Shown here piece by piece: positions 34,299-40,798 of a DNA stretch of 64,000 nt (position 1 is its first letter; each line of letters starts with the position of its first letter). The stretch spans positions 1 to 64,000 of the forward strand of contig JABUFA010000019.1 in assembly GCA_013314755.1 (NCBI GenBank). Reading direction: 5' to 3'. The position numbers and the translations under genes were made by a program. A model generated the notes under the pieces. The model saw nothing but the letters and a program-made list of their open reading frames with translations. It did not search any database and was not told the origin of the DNA. The stretch comes from Chthonomonadia bacterium. Lineage in GTDB: Bacteria > Armatimonadota > HRBIN16.

Positions 34299-34573
34299 GT
34301 TTTTCCCCCACAAGGCTCATCCTTTCTTATTATGGCACAATTCAGTATAGCACTTGTGCGGCTAGAGGTGGTAGTGCCGGACGAAGCGCCTGTTCCACGT
34401 GACGCTTCGCAGGTGCTCAGCACAGCACTGCTCTCGCTCCCTGCCGACACAACTCATCCTCGTAAAAGTACGGGTTTTTTCGCAATCAGTGGCTATCTAC
34501 TTGACTTGGGAGGCAGGGGCTTCTAGCTAGAATGTTACTGTTAAATCTTTCAGTAAGGGAAAGGAGGTTCACG

Positions 34574-35230
34574 ATGTTGCGCTTTTTGGTATCCGTTTTG
34601 CTGCTGGTCAGCCTGACGACGCTGGCAAATGCACAGGTTCGGTTGACGGCGAAGCCTCTGCCAGAGGGGGTCACGCTCAACGGTAGGCTTACTCCGCAAG
34701 CCGCTCCCGACTACAGCAACACGGCTACGTCCACCGGCTTCTACTTCCCAGGTGGAGCGGGCACCATTGTGGCGGATGATGTCTTCCGCACCACCAATCT
34801 GCCCATCTCGCAGATTTCGTTCGCCTACTACGCTCCGGGCGCCGCCCCTGACGTGGTCATGTACATCTATGACCTGAACGGATACAACCTGCCCGCGCCT
34901 CTGCTGGCGTCGTACAACCTTGGGACGCTTAACGGTAGCGGAGCGTGGATTTACACGGTCACTCTGCCAGGTCCTCTTAGCGCACCGAGCGACATCTGGA
35001 TAGGCTTCTCGTTCAGCATTGCCGACACCGGGTTGCTCATCTTTGACCCGCCCACCATCGGCTTTAGCGATGACGTGTTCATGATGAACAACAGCGGGCT
35101 GTACTGGTTTGGGGGCAACCCGAAGGCGAACTTCTATCTGGAGACCGTTCCTGTGCCCGAGCCTGCTAGCCTGCTGGTGCTGGGCAGTGGAGTAGCGGGA
35201 CTGTTTGCTCTGCGCCGACGCCGCGCGTAA
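34574..35230 (+). CDS. PEP-CTERM exosortase-sorted protein
   Basis: The 218-residue protein has an N-terminal signal peptide (MLRFLVSVLLLVSLTTLANA). A beta-rich body follows, and then a classic PEP-CTERM tail: VPEPAS, one hydrophobic helix (LLVLGSGVAGLFAL) and a RRRRA basic end. Such proteins are processed by exosortase and exported, often alongside extracellular polysaccharide. No exosortase gene is in the window. AAAGGAGG precedes ATG 34574, and a strong terminator follows. The function of the body is unknown. Confidence 0.9.
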   Translation: MLRFLVSVLLLVSLTTLANAQVRLTAKPLPEGVTLNGRLTPQAAPDYSNTATSTGFYFPGGAGTIVADDVFRTTNLPISQISFAYYAPGAAPDVVMYIYDLNGYNLPAPLLASYNLGTLNGSGAWIYTVTLPGPLSAPSDIWIGFSFSIADTGLLIFDPPTIGFSDDVFMMNNSGLYWFGGNPKANFYLETVPVPEPASLLVLGSGVAGLFALRRRRA

Positions 35231-35252: not shown

Positions 35253-35281
35253 AAGGGTCACGCGCTGTCGTGACCCTTTTT
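35253..35281 (+). terminator. intrinsic terminator of the PEP-CTERM gene
   Basis: A ten-pair stem AAGGGTCACG/CGTGACCCTT with a six-base loop is followed by TTT. It separates the PEP-CTERM gene from the membrane operon. Confidence 0.85.
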
Positions 35282-35329: not shown

Positions 35330-35358
35330 TTGACATGGAGAGTGTTTCTCCTTATAAT
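35330..35358 (+). promoter_or_regulatory. consensus sigma-70 promoter of the unknown membrane operon
   Basis: TTGACA (35330-35335), exactly 17 bases, then TATAAT (35353-35358): all twelve consensus positions match. Transcription should begin near 35365, which is inside the longest reading frame of the first gene. The first usable start must therefore lie further downstream. Confidence 0.88.
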
Positions 35359-35424
35359 GACGCAGGGTCATCTACAACAGCAGGCAGTGAAGAACAGGCA
35401 AACCGGTACACCCTGCAGTGGAAA

Positions 35425-35823
35425 GTGCACCTGTTGCGCCAGCAACCCCGCAAGGCATGGGGAGCGGCAGGAGTGATACTGCTGGCAGGGGTGCTGGTAG
35501 GGGTTGCCTTTCGCAGTGCAGGGATGGGTTTGCTAACAGTGGTGCTGTTGTGGCTGGCGACGCGAGAATACTGGCTTCCCGTGCGTTATACTATCGGCGA
35601 AAAGGGGGCGGGAGTGCGCTACTTCGGCGCAGTTTTTGACATCGCCTGGGAGCGCGTGAAGTACGTTACCGTCTACCAGGACGGTGTCAAGCTCAGTCCG
35701 TTGCCACCGCGTTCGCGTCTGGAGCCGTTTCGGGGGGTATATCTGCGCTTTGCGGACAATCGCGAACAGGTGCTGGAGGCGATAGCGTTTTGGCAATCAC
35801 AGGTGGATGGGAAGACGAGCTGA
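35425..35823 (+). CDS. small membrane protein with PH-like C-terminal domain (first gene of unknown operon)
   Basis: The open frame runs from ATG 35335, but a perfect promoter covers its first eight codons. I therefore place the start at GTG 35425 (132 residues), with low certainty. Two hydrophobic segments (about residues 13-29 and 33-47 of this form) are followed by a beta-rich region (YTIGEKGAGVRYFG, IAWERVKYV, LSPLPPRSR) like bacterial PH/DUF304-type modules. I cannot name it. It overlaps the next gene by 34 bases. Confidence 0.65.
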   Translation: MHLLRQQPRKAWGAAGVILLAGVLVGVAFRSAGMGLLTVVLLWLATREYWLPVRYTIGEKGAGVRYFGAVFDIAWERVKYVTVYQDGVKLSPLPPRSRLEPFRGVYLRFADNREQVLEAIAFWQSQVDGKTS

Positions 35824-36104
35824 GCGATGAGGAGCGCGACGCCATTCTGGAGCGAATCGCGCAGGGGATTGTGCGTCGCGGCATGGCGGCACCGGCGGTG
35901 CTGTTTCTGGAGCTGAACAAGCCGCTCTCCTTTGTTGCCAGCCAGTCGCTGATTGTGCTGACGCCGTTTCTGGCGCCCTTTGTGGGGATAGAGAACGTAC
36001 ACCGCTACAGCAGACTGCTGGAAAAGCGCGAAAACGTCGAACGGCTGATCGAACGCATTGAACAACTAGAACACGAGAGGCAGGAGCATGCAACACGCCT
36101 TTGA
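35790..36104 (+). CDS. small amphipathic protein of unknown function, TTG start
   Basis: The 104-residue product begins with an acidic segment (EDELSDEERDAILERIAQGI). A hydrophobic stretch at about 36-66 could be one membrane hairpin, and the C-terminus is a charged coiled coil (ENVERLIERIEQLEHERQEH). The TTG start overlaps the upstream gene, and the end overlaps the DUF6754-like gene by 17 bases. I recognise no family. The coiled coil suggests a partner protein in the neighbouring membrane complex. Confidence 0.65.
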   Translation: MAITGGWEDELSDEERDAILERIAQGIVRRGMAAPAVLFLELNKPLSFVASQSLIVLTPFLAPFVGIENVHRYSRLLEKRENVERLIERIEQLEHERQEHATRL

Positions 36105-36891
36105 GAAAATCTGGCCCGTGCTGATTGTGGAAGTGCTGACGGCACTCATCATCATCTGGCGTATCATCTCCGCACAGCGGGGCAAAGAGCTCTTCATCCG
36201 GCGCATTCCGGGCTTGAACGCCATCGACGAGGCTATCGGACGTGCCACCGAGATGGGACGCCCCGTGCTGATGGTGCCCGGCATCGGTGGGTTCAGTATC
36301 ATTGCCCTGCAGGCGCTGAGCATCTTCAGCTACATCGCGCGTTCCACTGCCCGCTTCGGCAACCGTATCCTGATGCCGGTCGCGGACGCCACCGTGTACA
36401 CCGTTGCCGAAGAGGTCATCCGCGACGCGTATCAGGCAGAGGGACACCCCGAACGCTTTGACCCCGACTCGGTTCGCTTCCTGTCCGACCGCCAGTTCGC
36501 CTTTGCGTCGGGCGTTGCGGGCTTGATTCAGCGCGAGCAGATTGCCAGTTCCTTCATGTTCGGTGAGTTCTTTGCGGAGTCGCTGATATTTGCCGAAACG
36601 GGCAACATGGTGGGAGCAATCCAGGTAGCAGGCACAGTACAGACAACCCAGATCCCCTTCTTTATCGCCGCGTGCGACTACACCATCATCGGCGATGAGT
36701 ACTATGCCGCCAGCGCGTACATCTCGCGCAACCCCACCATGCTGGGCAGCCTGGTAGGTCAGGACTTCGGCAAACTGCTCATCGCCTCTCTGTGTGTGGT
36801 GGGTTCGGTCGCGGCAACGCTGTCTGCCCTGGACGTTCCCGTGCTGGGCACTGCCAGCAAGTGGTTTATTGACCTGTTTACCATTCGTTAA
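36088..36891 (+). CDS. membrane protein resembling DUF6754 family
   Basis: The 267-residue product has a first membrane helix at 9-27. A motif region follows with IRRIPGLNAIDEAIGRATEMGRP near 38 (key residues RIPGL, DEA, GRATE). Hydrophobic segments are at 58-82 and 228-258, and a long conserved central part carries GEFFAESLIFAETG and YTIIGDEYYAASAYIS. From memory this matches the uncharacterised DUF6754 family, but I could not check it. It is the centre of a tightly packed membrane-protein operon. Confidence 0.75.
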   Translation: MQHAFEKIWPVLIVEVLTALIIIWRIISAQRGKELFIRRIPGLNAIDEAIGRATEMGRPVLMVPGIGGFSIIALQALSIFSYIARSTARFGNRILMPVADATVYTVAEEVIRDAYQAEGHPERFDPDSVRFLSDRQFAFASGVAGLIQREQIASSFMFGEFFAESLIFAETGNMVGAIQVAGTVQTTQIPFFIAACDYTIIGDEYYAASAYISRNPTMLGSLVGQDFGKLLIASLCVVGSVAATLSALDVPVLGTASKWFIDLFTIR

Positions 36892-36904
36892 CGGGAGGGT
36901 AAGG

Positions 36905-37717
36905 ATGCTTGAACCGATAGTGCGTTTTTTCTCGGCGAAACCACCGGCGGTGTTGCCTTACTACGTCGCCGGGGCGGTGATATTCAGTATACTGGTCATC
37001 CTGTTGCTTATCAACCTGCCCTCTCGCATGCGCAAGCCCCTGATTGCTATCGTCACCTTTCTGGCGGGGCTGTTCTACGCAGCGGAGTTCTTCCTGCCCA
37101 TTGACCGGGCGACCAACAAGAACGTCCTCACCGACTACCTGGTATCCGCCAGCAAGCTGGGCAGTCTGCTGGGTGGAATGACCCTCACACTCGGCATCCT
37201 GAGCCTGTTGAGAGTGCACGGGCGCAACATTGCCCGCCTGCGAGCAGGATGGTACAACAGCCTTGCCCTGCTCGTGGCGATGGTATCAATGGTTGTTTTC
37301 GGGCTGATGGACAAGTATGGCGCCAACGCCTCCGCGAAAAAGGTGTTCAACGTGCTGTTCGAGGGGATGCTGATTAACATGGACGCCACCATGTTCTCGC
37401 TGATTGCCTTCTACATCGTGTCGGCGTCCTATCGCGCCTTCCGCATCCGTTCCATAGAAGCCACCATCCTGATGGTCACCGCCTTCCTGGTAATGCTGGG
37501 ACAGGTTCCGGTGGGCAACGCCATGACCGACTGGCTACCTCGCGAAGGCTTTTTCGCCTCATTGCGCGTGGAAAACATCAAGCAATGGATACTTTCCCAG
37601 GTAAACGCCGCGGCACTGCGTGCGATTGCCTTCGGGCTGGGCGTGGGCGGACTGGCAATCTCTCTGCGCATCTGGCTGAGTCTGGAACGCGGCGCATACT
37701 TTGAGAAGGAGATTTAG
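36905..37717 (+). CDS. multi-helix membrane protein, function unknown
   Basis: The 270-residue product has about seven membrane helices (near 18-38, 45-63, 80-98, 112-132, 150-170, 178-196, 228-248). Charged loops lie between them, including FLPIDRATNKN and DWLPREGF. No transporter signature is recognised. GGGAGGGTAAGG precedes ATG 36905, and the longer frame starting inside the previous gene is not needed. It begins 13 bases after the DUF6754-like gene and ends two bases before the next. Confidence 0.72.
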   Translation: MLEPIVRFFSAKPPAVLPYYVAGAVIFSILVILLLINLPSRMRKPLIAIVTFLAGLFYAAEFFLPIDRATNKNVLTDYLVSASKLGSLLGGMTLTLGILSLLRVHGRNIARLRAGWYNSLALLVAMVSMVVFGLMDKYGANASAKKVFNVLFEGMLINMDATMFSLIAFYIVSASYRAFRIRSIEATILMVTAFLVMLGQVPVGNAMTDWLPREGFFASLRVENIKQWILSQVNAAALRAIAFGLGVGGLAISLRIWLSLERGAYFEKEI

Positions 37718-37719
37718 CG

Positions 37720-38574
37720 ATGGCGATGACATCACCAACGAGTCAACCGTCCGATTTCTGGCATCGTATTCAGGCGATAGACAGGCGCGTGCTGTATGTG
37801 CTGTTGCTGGTGGTGATTATTCTACCTTTGTTCGTTCCCATCCGCCTGCCGATGGTCACCATGCCCTCCACTCAGAAGCTCTACCAGGCGATAGAGTCCA
37901 TCCCGGAGGGCGGGTTCGTCATCGTCAGCGCAACATGGAGCGGCGGCACACGCGCCGAGAACATGCCCCAGACCGAAGCCATTCTGCGCCACCTGATGAA
38001 ACGTCGCCTGCGCGTGGCGGTTTTCTCCTTTGACCAGCAGGGCAGTCAGTTCTCCTACAACATCGCTTCGCGCCTGGCGAAGGAGTACAACTACGAGTAC
38101 GGCAAAGACTGGGTGCACTGGGGGTTCCGCCCGATTGTGGGCGTGGTGATGAAGTCGCTGGTGCGCGATATTCCGGGCACTTTCACCACCGACCGCGACG
38201 GCAAACCGACCAAAGACATGGAGGTCATGAAAGGTATTCGAGACATCAAGGACGTGGACGCCATCGTGGAAATTGCTGCCAGCGGTATCTACATGGACTG
38301 GATTGGGCTGGTGGTTGGCGCCAATCCCAACCTGAAGTTCGGCTTCTGCCCGACGGCGGTGATGGCGCCTGAGACCTATCCCTACATGGACTCCGGGCAG
38401 ATAGTGGGCATTATGGAAGGGATGCGCGGCGCGGCGGAGTACGAACAGCTCATCAGGGCGACCGGACTTGCCACCAAGGGGATGGGCAGTATCTCGCTGG
38501 CGCATGTGCTCATCATGTTGTTGATTATCATCGGAAACATCGGATACATCGCAACACGGGCACGGGGGAGATAA
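37720..38574 (+). CDS. bitopic protein with large extramembrane alpha/beta domain, function unknown
   Basis: The 284-residue product has a membrane anchor at about 24-44 and another at 262-279, enclosing a soluble domain of about 210 residues. That domain starts with a Rossmann-like strand-turn-helix (GGFVIVSATWSGGT) and contains VAVFSFDQQ, VGANPNLKFGF and MAPETYPYMDSGQIVGIMEGM. It looks like a receptor or enzyme domain held at the membrane. I cannot name the family. It sits between two multi-helix membrane proteins with spacings of 2-3 bases. Confidence 0.72.
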   Translation: MAMTSPTSQPSDFWHRIQAIDRRVLYVLLLVVIILPLFVPIRLPMVTMPSTQKLYQAIESIPEGGFVIVSATWSGGTRAENMPQTEAILRHLMKRRLRVAVFSFDQQGSQFSYNIASRLAKEYNYEYGKDWVHWGFRPIVGVVMKSLVRDIPGTFTTDRDGKPTKDMEVMKGIRDIKDVDAIVEIAASGIYMDWIGLVVGANPNLKFGFCPTAVMAPETYPYMDSGQIVGIMEGMRGAAEYEQLIRATGLATKGMGSISLAHVLIMLLIIIGNIGYIATRARGR

Positions 38575-38577
38575 CGA

Positions 38578-39237
38578 ATGGAAGCACTGTGGCAGGATAT
38601 CCTTTCGCGACCGGCTATCTATGCGGGCGCCATCTGTACTATCGGGTTGATGACGCTGGTTTACCGCGAGAACGCCGTGTACCGCTTTTTCGAGCATGTG
38701 TTCATCGGACTGGCGGCGGGGTTCTCTATTGTGGTGCTTATCAAAGAAATCCTGGACCCCTTCCTGTACCAGCCAGTGTTCAAGAAAGGCGAGTGGTACT
38801 GGACATTCGTGTTCATGTTCGGTCTGCTGTTTTACTTCATCCACAGCCGAAAATATAACTGGCTCAGCCGCCTGCCGATTGGGTTCCTGATGGGCTTTGC
38901 GGCGGGACAGGCGTTCCAGAGCTTTGCCAACACCTACCTGCCGCAGATCGCTGTGTCCTTCCGTCCCCTGTATGTCACCCGGGCGGATGGCTCGGTGGAT
39001 GTATCAGCAGGGATAAACAACCTGATTTTCATGATTGTGCTCGTCACGGTAATGAGCTACTTCTTCTTCTCGTTCGAGCAGAAGAGCAAAGTCATCCGCA
39101 ACTCGGCGCAGTTCGGGCGATGGGTAATGATGGTGGCTTTCGGCGCGATTTTTGGAACAACCATTATGGCGCGTATGGCTCTGCTGTTTGACCGAATGTA
39201 TTTCCTGTTCAGCGACTGGTTGCGATGGGTGCAATAA
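38578..39237 (+). CDS. six-helix membrane protein, function unknown
   Basis: The 219-residue product has about six membrane helices (near 14-28, 40-60, 72-90, 100-118, 148-166, 182-202). A polar segment near 128-145 (YVTRADGSVDVSAG) probably faces outward. It has no recognisable catalytic motif. It follows the bitopic protein by three bases and overlaps the NlpC/P60 gene by 13, so all are likely translated together. Confidence 0.72.
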   Translation: MEALWQDILSRPAIYAGAICTIGLMTLVYRENAVYRFFEHVFIGLAAGFSIVVLIKEILDPFLYQPVFKKGEWYWTFVFMFGLLFYFIHSRKYNWLSRLPIGFLMGFAAGQAFQSFANTYLPQIAVSFRPLYVTRADGSVDVSAGINNLIFMIVLVTVMSYFFFSFEQKSKVIRNSAQFGRWVMMVAFGAIFGTTIMARMALLFDRMYFLFSDWLRWVQ

Positions 39238-40004
39238 GGGTGCGAACGGTTGCGGCGTGCACGGTGTTGGCTGTGTGGCAGGCGGCTGTGCTTGCCGATA
39301 CCACTCTGTCGCTTGAATTGCCCATTCGTCCGCCACAGCCCCCACCGTCGGCTTCTGCGCCATCGCGAAGTGCACCGCCCCCACGAACCGAATCCAAGCG
39401 CACGCAGGCAATCGGACGGCTGGGAGTGACGGTAAACCCTGCGCCCATCTATGCCACCCGAAGCACCAGCAGTAGGCTCTATGCCCGCTGTGAAAGCCTC
39501 ACCTACCTTGCCGTCACGCACGAGGCTGGGGCGTGGTATGGCGTACTGATGGCAGACGGTAGCGTGGGATGGATCCCGCGTCAGCACGTACGCCTGCTGG
39601 ACTATGAGGTGGTTCCTGCCAGCCCAACTGCTACGGGCGCGCTGGGTGAGCGGATCGTGCAGACGGCTCTGCGCTTCTTAGGCATTCCTTACCGATGGGG
39701 CGGAACCTCCTACAATGGACTGGACTGCTCGGGCTTTGTGCAGAAGGTGTTCGCGCTCAATGGGATTCGCCTGCCCCGGCTCGGCAGGCATCAGGCGCAG
39801 GTTGGCACGCCCATTCCTGACCTGTCGATGGTTCAACCGGGTGACCGGCTGTACTTCCGTTCCAGCAAACAGCCCATTGCGCACACGGGCATCTACATTG
39901 GCAACGGCTACTTTATCCATGCTGCCAGCAGTCGCGGACGGGTAGCTATCGATCGCATCACCGACCCCAAATACCTGCGCACGCTGGTAGGCATTCGCCG
40001 ATAA
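39225..40004 (+). CDS. secreted NlpC/P60 peptidoglycan hydrolase with SH3 domain
   Basis: The 259-residue protein has a signal peptide (about 1-25), a Pro/Ser-rich linker, an SH3b-type domain (70-130) and a C-terminal NlpC/P60 domain. The catalytic Cys is in LDCSGFVQKVF (near 167) and the His in AHTGIYIGNG (near 223). These enzymes cut D-Glu to diamino-acid bonds in peptides of the cell wall. It overlaps the preceding membrane gene by 13 bases, which ties the unknown operon to the cell envelope. Confidence 0.9.
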   Translation: MGAIRVRTVAACTVLAVWQAAVLADTTLSLELPIRPPQPPPSASAPSRSAPPPRTESKRTQAIGRLGVTVNPAPIYATRSTSSRLYARCESLTYLAVTHEAGAWYGVLMADGSVGWIPRQHVRLLDYEVVPASPTATGALGERIVQTALRFLGIPYRWGGTSYNGLDCSGFVQKVFALNGIRLPRLGRHQAQVGTPIPDLSMVQPGDRLYFRSSKQPIAHTGIYIGNGYFIHAASSRGRVAIDRITDPKYLRTLVGIRR

Positions 40005-40012
40005 GACCTGCT

Positions 40013-40798
40013 GTGTGGGCGATTCATCCTCTGCTCTCAGCTACAGCTGTCCTGCTGGTAGTGCTTCCCGCCTTCCGGTTGGGATGGCTTTCCCCTTCGG
40101 GCGCACTGTCCGCCTTTGTGGTGGGCTGGGTGACCCTCATCGCGGGAGGTGTCGGCTCGGCGATGGCACTGCTCACCTTCTTTATCAGCTCCAGCCTGCT
40201 CAGTCGCTGGCGTGCCGAGCGCAAAAGGCGCATGGAAACGCTGACGGCGCGAGGCTCCACGCGCACCGCCGCGCAGGTGCTCGCCAACGGAGGGGTTGCC
40301 ACCCTGTGTATTGCGCTGTATCTGTTGACGGGAGATACCCGCTGGTGGTTAGCGTTCGTCGGAGCGTATGCCGCCGCTAACGCCGACACGTGGAGCAGTG
40401 AAATCGGCGCACTGTCTCGCGTGCCGCCTCGTCATCTGCTAACCCTGCGCCCCTTGAAGGCAGGCGATTCAGGCGGAGTGACTCTGCTGGGTCTACTGGC
40501 GGGAGGCGCGGGCAGCCTGCTGGTCGCCGTTGTGGCGGGTTGGCTGGCTTCTGCCTCCCCCATACAGGTCGCTGCCGTGGCGATAGGCGGGTTTGGCGGT
40601 GCTCTGGTAGACAGTCTTCTGGGCGCAACCATTCAGGCAAAGTACCGATGCGTCGGATGCGGCGAAGTGGTGGAAAGCGCACGGCATTGCGGCAGCCCGG
40701 CTGAGCCTGCCGGTGGCTGGCGGTGTATGAACAATGACGCCGTCAATCTGTTCTGTACGCTGACGGGGGCGATGATGGCGTACGTTATTGGCAGATAA
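40013..40798 (+). CDS. DUF92/TMEM19 family membrane protein, possible isoprenoid-phosphate kinase
   Basis: The 261-residue protein has six or more membrane helices and family motifs GYxxAN-like VGAYAAANADTWSSEIG (near 122), LKAGDSGGVTLLG (near 150) and the C-terminal NNDAVNLF. Plant VTE6 of this family phosphorylates phytyl phosphate, but the bacterial role is uncertain. A cysteine cluster (CVGC, HC, RC at 212-240) precedes the last helix. The GTG start follows the NlpC/P60 gene by eight bases. Confidence 0.8.
   Translation: MWAIHPLLSATAVLLVVLPAFRLGWLSPSGALSAFVVGWVTLIAGGVGSAMALLTFFISSSLLSRWRAERKRRMETLTARGSTRTAAQVLANGGVATLCIALYLLTGDTRWWLAFVGAYAAANADTWSSEIGALSRVPPRHLLTLRPLKAGDSGGVTLLGLLAGGAGSLLVAVVAGWLASASPIQVAAVAIGGFGGALVDSLLGATIQAKYRCVGCGEVVESARHCGSPAEPAGGWRCMNNDAVNLFCTLTGAMMAYVIGR

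Follow-up and report, generated by a model that had tools for sequence, protein, structure and literature searches.

Proteins of the MutL/GlmL family (PF13941; NF040745) are described as chaperones that reactivate B12-dependent glutamate mutase (PMC4682846). NqrA and RnfC share an N-terminal barrel-sandwich domain, and NqrA is credited with a structural role (PMC4014512), while FtsZl-1/Tubulin_2 has been described as a membrane-remodelling system (Makarova and Koonin, 2010; PMC2875224). The Pfam family DUF6754 (PF20539) carries no function, and neither DUF6754, PF20539 nor PF13941 is named in the 5.39 million papers searched, in which 'glutamate mutase L' returned one unrelated paper. Here we compare these systems with six co-directional open reading frames (ORFs), P1 to P6, at positions 35425-39237 on the forward strand of the window, a 64,000-nucleotide stretch of contig JABUFA010000019.1 from a Chthonomonadia bacterium of the Armatimonadota. 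We propose that the six ORFs encode the membrane portion of a single machine of eight proteins, which is completed by a MutL/GlmL-type protein, GLM, and a protein with a barrel-sandwich region, BSH. This proposal is about evenly balanced between right and wrong; that the eight proteins form one functional unit is very probable. An initial annotation of the window had already singled out P1-P6 as a suggested membrane complex. The six genes stand, but the set was incomplete, as it missed GLM and BSH, which are encoded outside the locus in the window genome.

Linkage and co-occurrence of eight genes and joint loss of four

The order P1-P2-P3-P4-P5-P6 recurs among 40 loci from about 30 Armatimonadota families, with P1 as the first gene in about 30 loci of the phylum, P4 adjoining P3 in almost all loci and P6 kept after P5. 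P2 and P3 are in some loci separated by gaps of 3-4 kb that contain two genes, GLM and BSH. All eight genes form a single operon, P1-P2-GLM-BSH-P3-P4-P5-P6, in Fermentibacterota, in L129 and L146 (our locus numbers) and in L047, L051, L052, L058 and L062. Other arrangements are P1-P6-GLM-BSH (L045), P6-P1-P2-GLM-BSH (L133), GLM-BSH pairs (seven loci: L177, L179, L181-L185) and P2-GLM pairs (six loci: L194, L196, L198, L200, L207, L208), P2 neighbouring P1 in Armatimonadota and GLM in other phyla. The window genome encodes both additional proteins on contigs separate from that of P1-P6, GLM at G000:C70:67841-69610 and BSH at G000:C47:52193-53314.

DUF6754, the family of P3, occurs in 173 of the 201 Armatimonadota genomes sampled (about 86%) and in none of 14 well-known genomes used as controls, and BSH, GLM and P5 are present in 182, 179 and 172 of the 201. 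The system may have been overlooked because it is missing from such well-known genomes. In the 140 good genomes of this sample (at least 90% complete, at most 5% contaminated), P3 and P5 are each found in 127, BSH in 130 and GLM in 129, and about 126 have all four. Ten good genomes (G004, G007, G019, G045, G057, G103, G113, G125, G180 and G184, identified by elimination and consistent with the totals) lack P3, P5, GLM and BSH alike. These fall in families f4, f7, f9 and f12, the last three of which also include genomes that keep the genes. A single genome, G048, misses only GLM. The association of P3 with BSH across the 140 genomes gives p=5e-13 in a Fisher test that is uncorrected for phylogeny.

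A scan of named genomes yielded at least 576 relatives, the best 80 of which were kept. Among the matches listed, the P3-P6 block extends outside Armatimonadota to at least nine named lineages: Eisenbacteria, WOR-3/Stahlbacteria, TA06, Poribacteria, Latescibacterota, Zixibacteriota, Fermentibacterota/Aegiribacteria (Fermentibacteria), CSSED10-310 and Muiribacterium. The system occurs in many little-studied phyla of bacteria. The 28 non-Armatimonadota genomes with P3-P6 almost all hold the other four genes as well (P1 27/28, P2 26/28, GLM 27/28, BSH 26/28). P1 and P2 are thus present in these genomes even where they lie away from P3-P6, rather than occurring separately, which the initial annotation had named as evidence against a single complex. 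Given this linkage, shared presence and joint loss, the eight genes behave like a single unit, and the gene order kept within the phylum and beyond it, together with co-occurrence and co-loss of components, lends support to the membrane complex proposed at the outset. No relative of P3 was found among viral contigs or plasmids, and a mobile-element origin was discarded on this ground.

GLM and BSH are also joined naturally in eight genomes (L157-L164, in G213, G204, G222, G226, G208, G211, G220 and G207), as ORFs of 740-1046 residues. This fusion is a divergent paralogue; in the core loci, no one-ORF fusion of two different families of the set was found. One of the fusions, in L163, lies near a P6 homologue, a hint that the system has another version.

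The P1-P6 operon and its products

The six genes are packed as had been described, with overlaps of 34 bp between P1 (35425-35823) and P2 (35790-36104) and of 17 bp between P2 and P3 (36088-36891), followed by gaps of 13 bp to P4 (36905-37717), 2 bp to P5 (37720-38574) and 3 bp to P6 (38578-39237). The exact sigma-70-type consensus noted upstream on the same strand (35330-35358), TTGACA-17-TATAAT, is matched exactly nowhere else in the 64 kb, against an expectation of 0.02 matches. Both hexamers and the 17-bp spacing are kept in nine of nine genomes of the genus (the window genome and eight congeners), one of them with the -35 variant TTGACG. Since hexamers and spacing persist across the genus while the spacer diverges, the promoter of the operon is real. 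A strong terminator-like hairpin at 35253-35278 (forward strand), with a 10-bp stem and a T-rich tail, would insulate the operon from the gene upstream, and most congeners have a hairpin of the GAGGGTC...GACCCT type at the equivalent place. That upstream gene (34532-35227) encodes a PEP-CTERM (exosortase-sorted) secreted protein, and a PEP-CTERM-like tail is found there in most congeners. At the other end (39225-40795), P6 is overlapped by 13 bp by a gene for an NlpC/P60 protein with weak SH3-like matches, followed by one for a DUF92 membrane protein.

P1, a small membrane protein, combines a hydrophobic hairpin with a beta-rich domain (alignment A9). Its description as PH-like finds weak support, as bPH_6 is matched by 2 of 24 members, at best with E=0.0016. 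Most relatives have an ATG about 12 codons ahead of a conserved LQW motif. Relative to most congeners, the window has lost 11 bp in the 35335-35425 region, and with them this usual ATG, and the start of P1 in the window genome is therefore uncertain. It may be the GTG at 35425, after the LQW motif, or a non-canonical start; the ATG at 35335 falls inside the promoter. An apparently similar deletion precedes P1 in G044, where a TTG start is possible. P2 is a helical protein of about 100 residues with an amphipathic or hydrophobic centre and a C-terminal coiled coil (alignment A10).

P3, which had been called DUF6754-like, is a true, full-length member of DUF6754 (E=3.8e-95, 318.3 bits against a curated cut-off of 27) and the most conserved subunit, with a mean column identity of 52% in alignment A4. 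AlphaFold2 models built from alignments of named-genome homologues predict with confidence a Rossmann-like alpha/beta domain in both P3 and P5 (predicted local distance difference test, 93.8 and 95.6). In P3 this domain lies between N- and C-terminal membrane helices. In P5 (alignment A3) it spans about 210 residues, as first proposed, between membrane helices at about residues 22-42 and 250-283 according to hydropathy and the model, so that P5 is a two-pass rather than a bitopic protein. The flanking charges, and an extracytoplasmic Fn3 domain ahead of P3 in other phyla, suggest a cytoplasmic position for the P3 domain and a probably extracytoplasmic one for the P5 domain. Although both domains are Rossmann-like, profile comparison gives no support for mutual homology of P3 and P5. 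Foldseek searches of the PDB returned no close solved fold for either protein (best E 3.9e-3 for P3 and 1.0e-3 for P5, query TM-score at most about 0.38), and a profile search of PDB sequences found no solved relative of P1 or of P3-P6. Two families of Armatimonadota, f5 (L039, 8385-9970) and f17 (L046, 8006-9771), have a tandem duplication of P3 within the operon.

P4 and P6 are polytopic, with about 6-7 and 5-6 helices, respectively, by hydropathy (alignments A5 and A6), and P4 carries a conserved YRAFRxRSxEA motif. Profile searches assigned P1, P2, P4, P5 and P6 to no Pfam or NCBIfam family. The likeness to DUF6754 is thus limited to P3, and the view of an undescribed system is supported by these searches and by the PDB-fold comparisons of P3 and P5.

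GLM (about 600 residues) matches PF13941 with E=1e-124 to 1e-132 (414-442 bits against a cut-off of 27), and it has the ASKHA core with near-invariant phosphate/adenosine motifs (DCGSTTTKA, DIGGATTDVFS and GSGGVLSH). However, it scores below the equivalog cut-offs of GlmL (217-253 against 475 bits) and of OR-4 of ornithine aminomutase (206-238 against 600), carries an extra C-terminal region of about 120 residues and is linked to a membrane complex. No B12 mutase gene was seen among the neighbours of the system that were read. A role as GlmL proper or as an OR-4 mutase reactivase was set aside in view of these scores and the lack of a mutase gene nearby, and automatic annotation would probably label GLM 'glutamate mutase L'. 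A separate GLM-like (OR-4-like) gene of Muiribacterium, in contrast to GLM, has no C-terminal extension and lies beside apparent ornithine-degradation genes (L166, 228-7901).

BSH (about 375 residues) has an N-terminal barrel-sandwich region that weakly resembles RnfC_N (E=9.8e-05, 22.8 bits against a cut-off of 25.6) and NQRA_N (6e-04), both below threshold. Unlike NqrA and RnfC, it has no Fe-S, flavin or NADH domain, its C-terminal part is different and its partners are not Nqr or Rnf subunits. Alignment A7 contains no lysine in invariant or nearly invariant columns, and a Biotin_lipoyl match stays under its cut-off. Because no lysine is invariant, BSH is neither a lipoyl nor a biotin carrier. 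Searches of the PDB with BSH and GLM profiles found no solved relative, the best BSH matches having E=0.025 and 0.094. Five Armatimonadota loci (L175, L176, L178, L180 and L186) encode, between GLM and BSH, a protein of about 230 residues with one N-terminal membrane helix and a pilin-like outline.

A candidate membrane machine and competing explanations

It is possible that P4 and P6 form a membrane core flanked by the Rossmann-like domains of P3 on the cytoplasmic and P5 on the outer side, one per face, each binding a small ligand or a partner. P1 and P2 would serve as adaptors, P2 pairing with GLM. As a putative cytoplasmic ASKHA (Hsp70/actin/GlmL-type) ATPase, GLM may dock on the cytoplasmic face together with the barrel-sandwich adaptor BSH, by analogy with NqrA and RnfC, which dock through a related domain, and ATP binding or hydrolysis may then switch or reset the core, much as GlmL reactivates glutamate mutase. 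The machine would then probably serve to transfer or hand over a small molecule across the diderm inner membrane. Such an ATPase-switched core is a tentative idea, the balance leaning slightly against it, and transport as the job of the machine is doubtful.

Several points weigh against a single machine of this kind. Linkage and co-occurrence are no proof of a physical complex, and the co-loss statistic ignores kinship. P3 and P5 are missing from three of the good genomes, G023, G055 and G105, which keep GLM and BSH, and assembly gaps may account for this. Transport is seldom powered by ASKHA ATPases, and family and fold searches recognized neither a substrate nor a transporter fold in the subunits. 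Profile libraries also gave no match to a P-loop ATPase subunit or a known transporter family in P1-P6, GLM or BSH, and an ABC-type or otherwise P-loop-driven transporter or secretion system was discarded accordingly.

The system resembles none of GlmL proper, Rnf/Nqr, a lipoyl carrier, FtsZl-1 or a P-loop transporter closely enough to belong to it, and because these matches failed it appears to be categorically new; that view could be overturned by a fold or function invisible to the methods used. A further-reaching proposal would be that the system represents a novel class of energy-driven membrane machines, with a GlmL-type ATPase of the Hsp70/actin (ASKHA) fold that acts via BSH and drives a four-subunit core with Rossmann-like domains on both faces, in place of P-loop ATPases or ion gradients, and we regard this as rather unlikely. 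If the eight proteins do form one machine, it would be an ancient multi-component membrane system and an undescribed part of core bacterial cell biology. It would also give a setting to DUF6754 and to a mutase-less GlmL-type ATPase. The eight-gene set, the natural GLM-BSH fusion and the linkage to glycine cleavage genes make the function directly testable.

The machine may instead act specifically in glycine cleavage or lipoyl metabolism, by taking up or handing over lipoate, octanoate or glycine or by coupling glycine decarboxylase to the membrane, with gcvT-gcvH-gcvPA-gcvPB-P1-P2-GLM-BSH-P3-P4-P5-P6 as the ancestral operon. Neighbouring genes, named here from sequence resemblance and unchecked against curated libraries, point to glycine/lipoyl or fatty-acid initiation metabolism, and gcvPB is the best functional lead. 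On the same strand, overlapping or within 90 bp, it directly precedes P1 at five loci of Fermentibacterota/Aegiribacteria, in two genomes of Eisenbacteria and in L129/L146; P2-GLM has it directly 5' in three genomes of WOR-3, in a Stahlbacteria genome and in G218. The P1/P2/GLM region was read in 19 genomes from outside Armatimonadota, and 11 of them show the link (gcv-linked loci: L125, L129, L140, L144-L146, L152, L167, L194, L196, L198, L200, L208, L210). Individual cases add to this: the gene directly after P6 in L129 and L146 resembles lipoate ligase, P2 is followed in L205 by a gene for a lipoyl E2 and GLM in WOR-3 by plsX-fabH, and in L169-L172 the distance between accA and BSH is 0.8-1.0 kb. 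In the Armatimonadota locus L048, a divergent gcv cluster and an lplA-like gene lie 1.8-6 kb from P1. However, the link is missing in 8 of the 19 genomes and in most Armatimonadota loci, where GLM and BSH neighbours show no functional theme, and BSH has no invariant lysine. The gcv linkage may be mere ancient shared synteny, which can outlast function, and we consider a role in glycine cleavage unlikely.

That the system is a cell-envelope or cell-wall machine is quite improbable. The NlpC/P60 gene that overlaps P6 in the genus and the outer-face Fn3 domain of P3 in other phyla speak for it, and the host lineages named here are usually taken as diderm. However, the NlpC/P60 neighbour, from which an envelope role had first been suggested, proved confined to the genus when 40 Armatimonadota loci were compared and is for that reason no evidence for such a role, nor does any envelope gene recur among the neighbours read. 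Still less probable is that P3-P6 form a complex by themselves, GLM, BSH, P1 and P2 being independent housekeeping genes of equal taxonomic range. The parts do lie apart in many genomes, the window genome included, but the single operons of several phyla, the presence of P1-P2 within the P3-P6 operon of Armatimonadota and the joint loss of P3, P5, GLM and BSH in at least four families speak against this view. A redox or ion pump akin to Nqr/Rnf, with BSH as the peripheral NqrA/RnfC-like subunit and P4/P6 as ion-conducting subunits, is highly improbable: it draws on the weak BSH matches and the two polytopic subunits, but those matches are under curated cut-offs, no subunit has a flavin, haem or Fe-S family, the partner belongs to an ATPase family, and profile libraries match P4 and P6 to none of NqrB/D/E or RnfA/D/E/G.

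Paralogous copies and other neighbours

The P3-P6 block occurs in two or three tandem copies in six loci (L127, L135, L137, L142, L146 and L147). The window genome has a second P3-P6 copy, without P1 and P2, on contig C50, which is 33-47% identical to the first. There (L003, 7397-17261), the paralogous P3-P4-P5-P6 is followed by genes whose products are a secreted protein with Ig-like character, a member of Tubulin_2 and a partner of 721 residues. The Tubulin_2 gene (PF13809, E=2e-46) is the only one of the genome and constitutes the likeness to FtsZl-1/Tubulin_2, but the vWA or GTPase partner of that system was not seen. Membrane remodelling of this type was rejected, as the tubulin gene stands beside the C50 paralogue only and neither at the congener paralogues L035 and L037 nor at other loci.

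Two further neighbours were seen 5' of P3. Latescibacterota and WOR-3/Stahlbacteria loci (L122, L130, L134, L135, L137, L142 and L149) have a small MazG-like ORF about 70-900 bp upstream on the same strand. Poribacteria (L119, L136, L148 and L153) have an aroB-like gene directly 5' of P3, preceded in L119 by an aroK-like gene.

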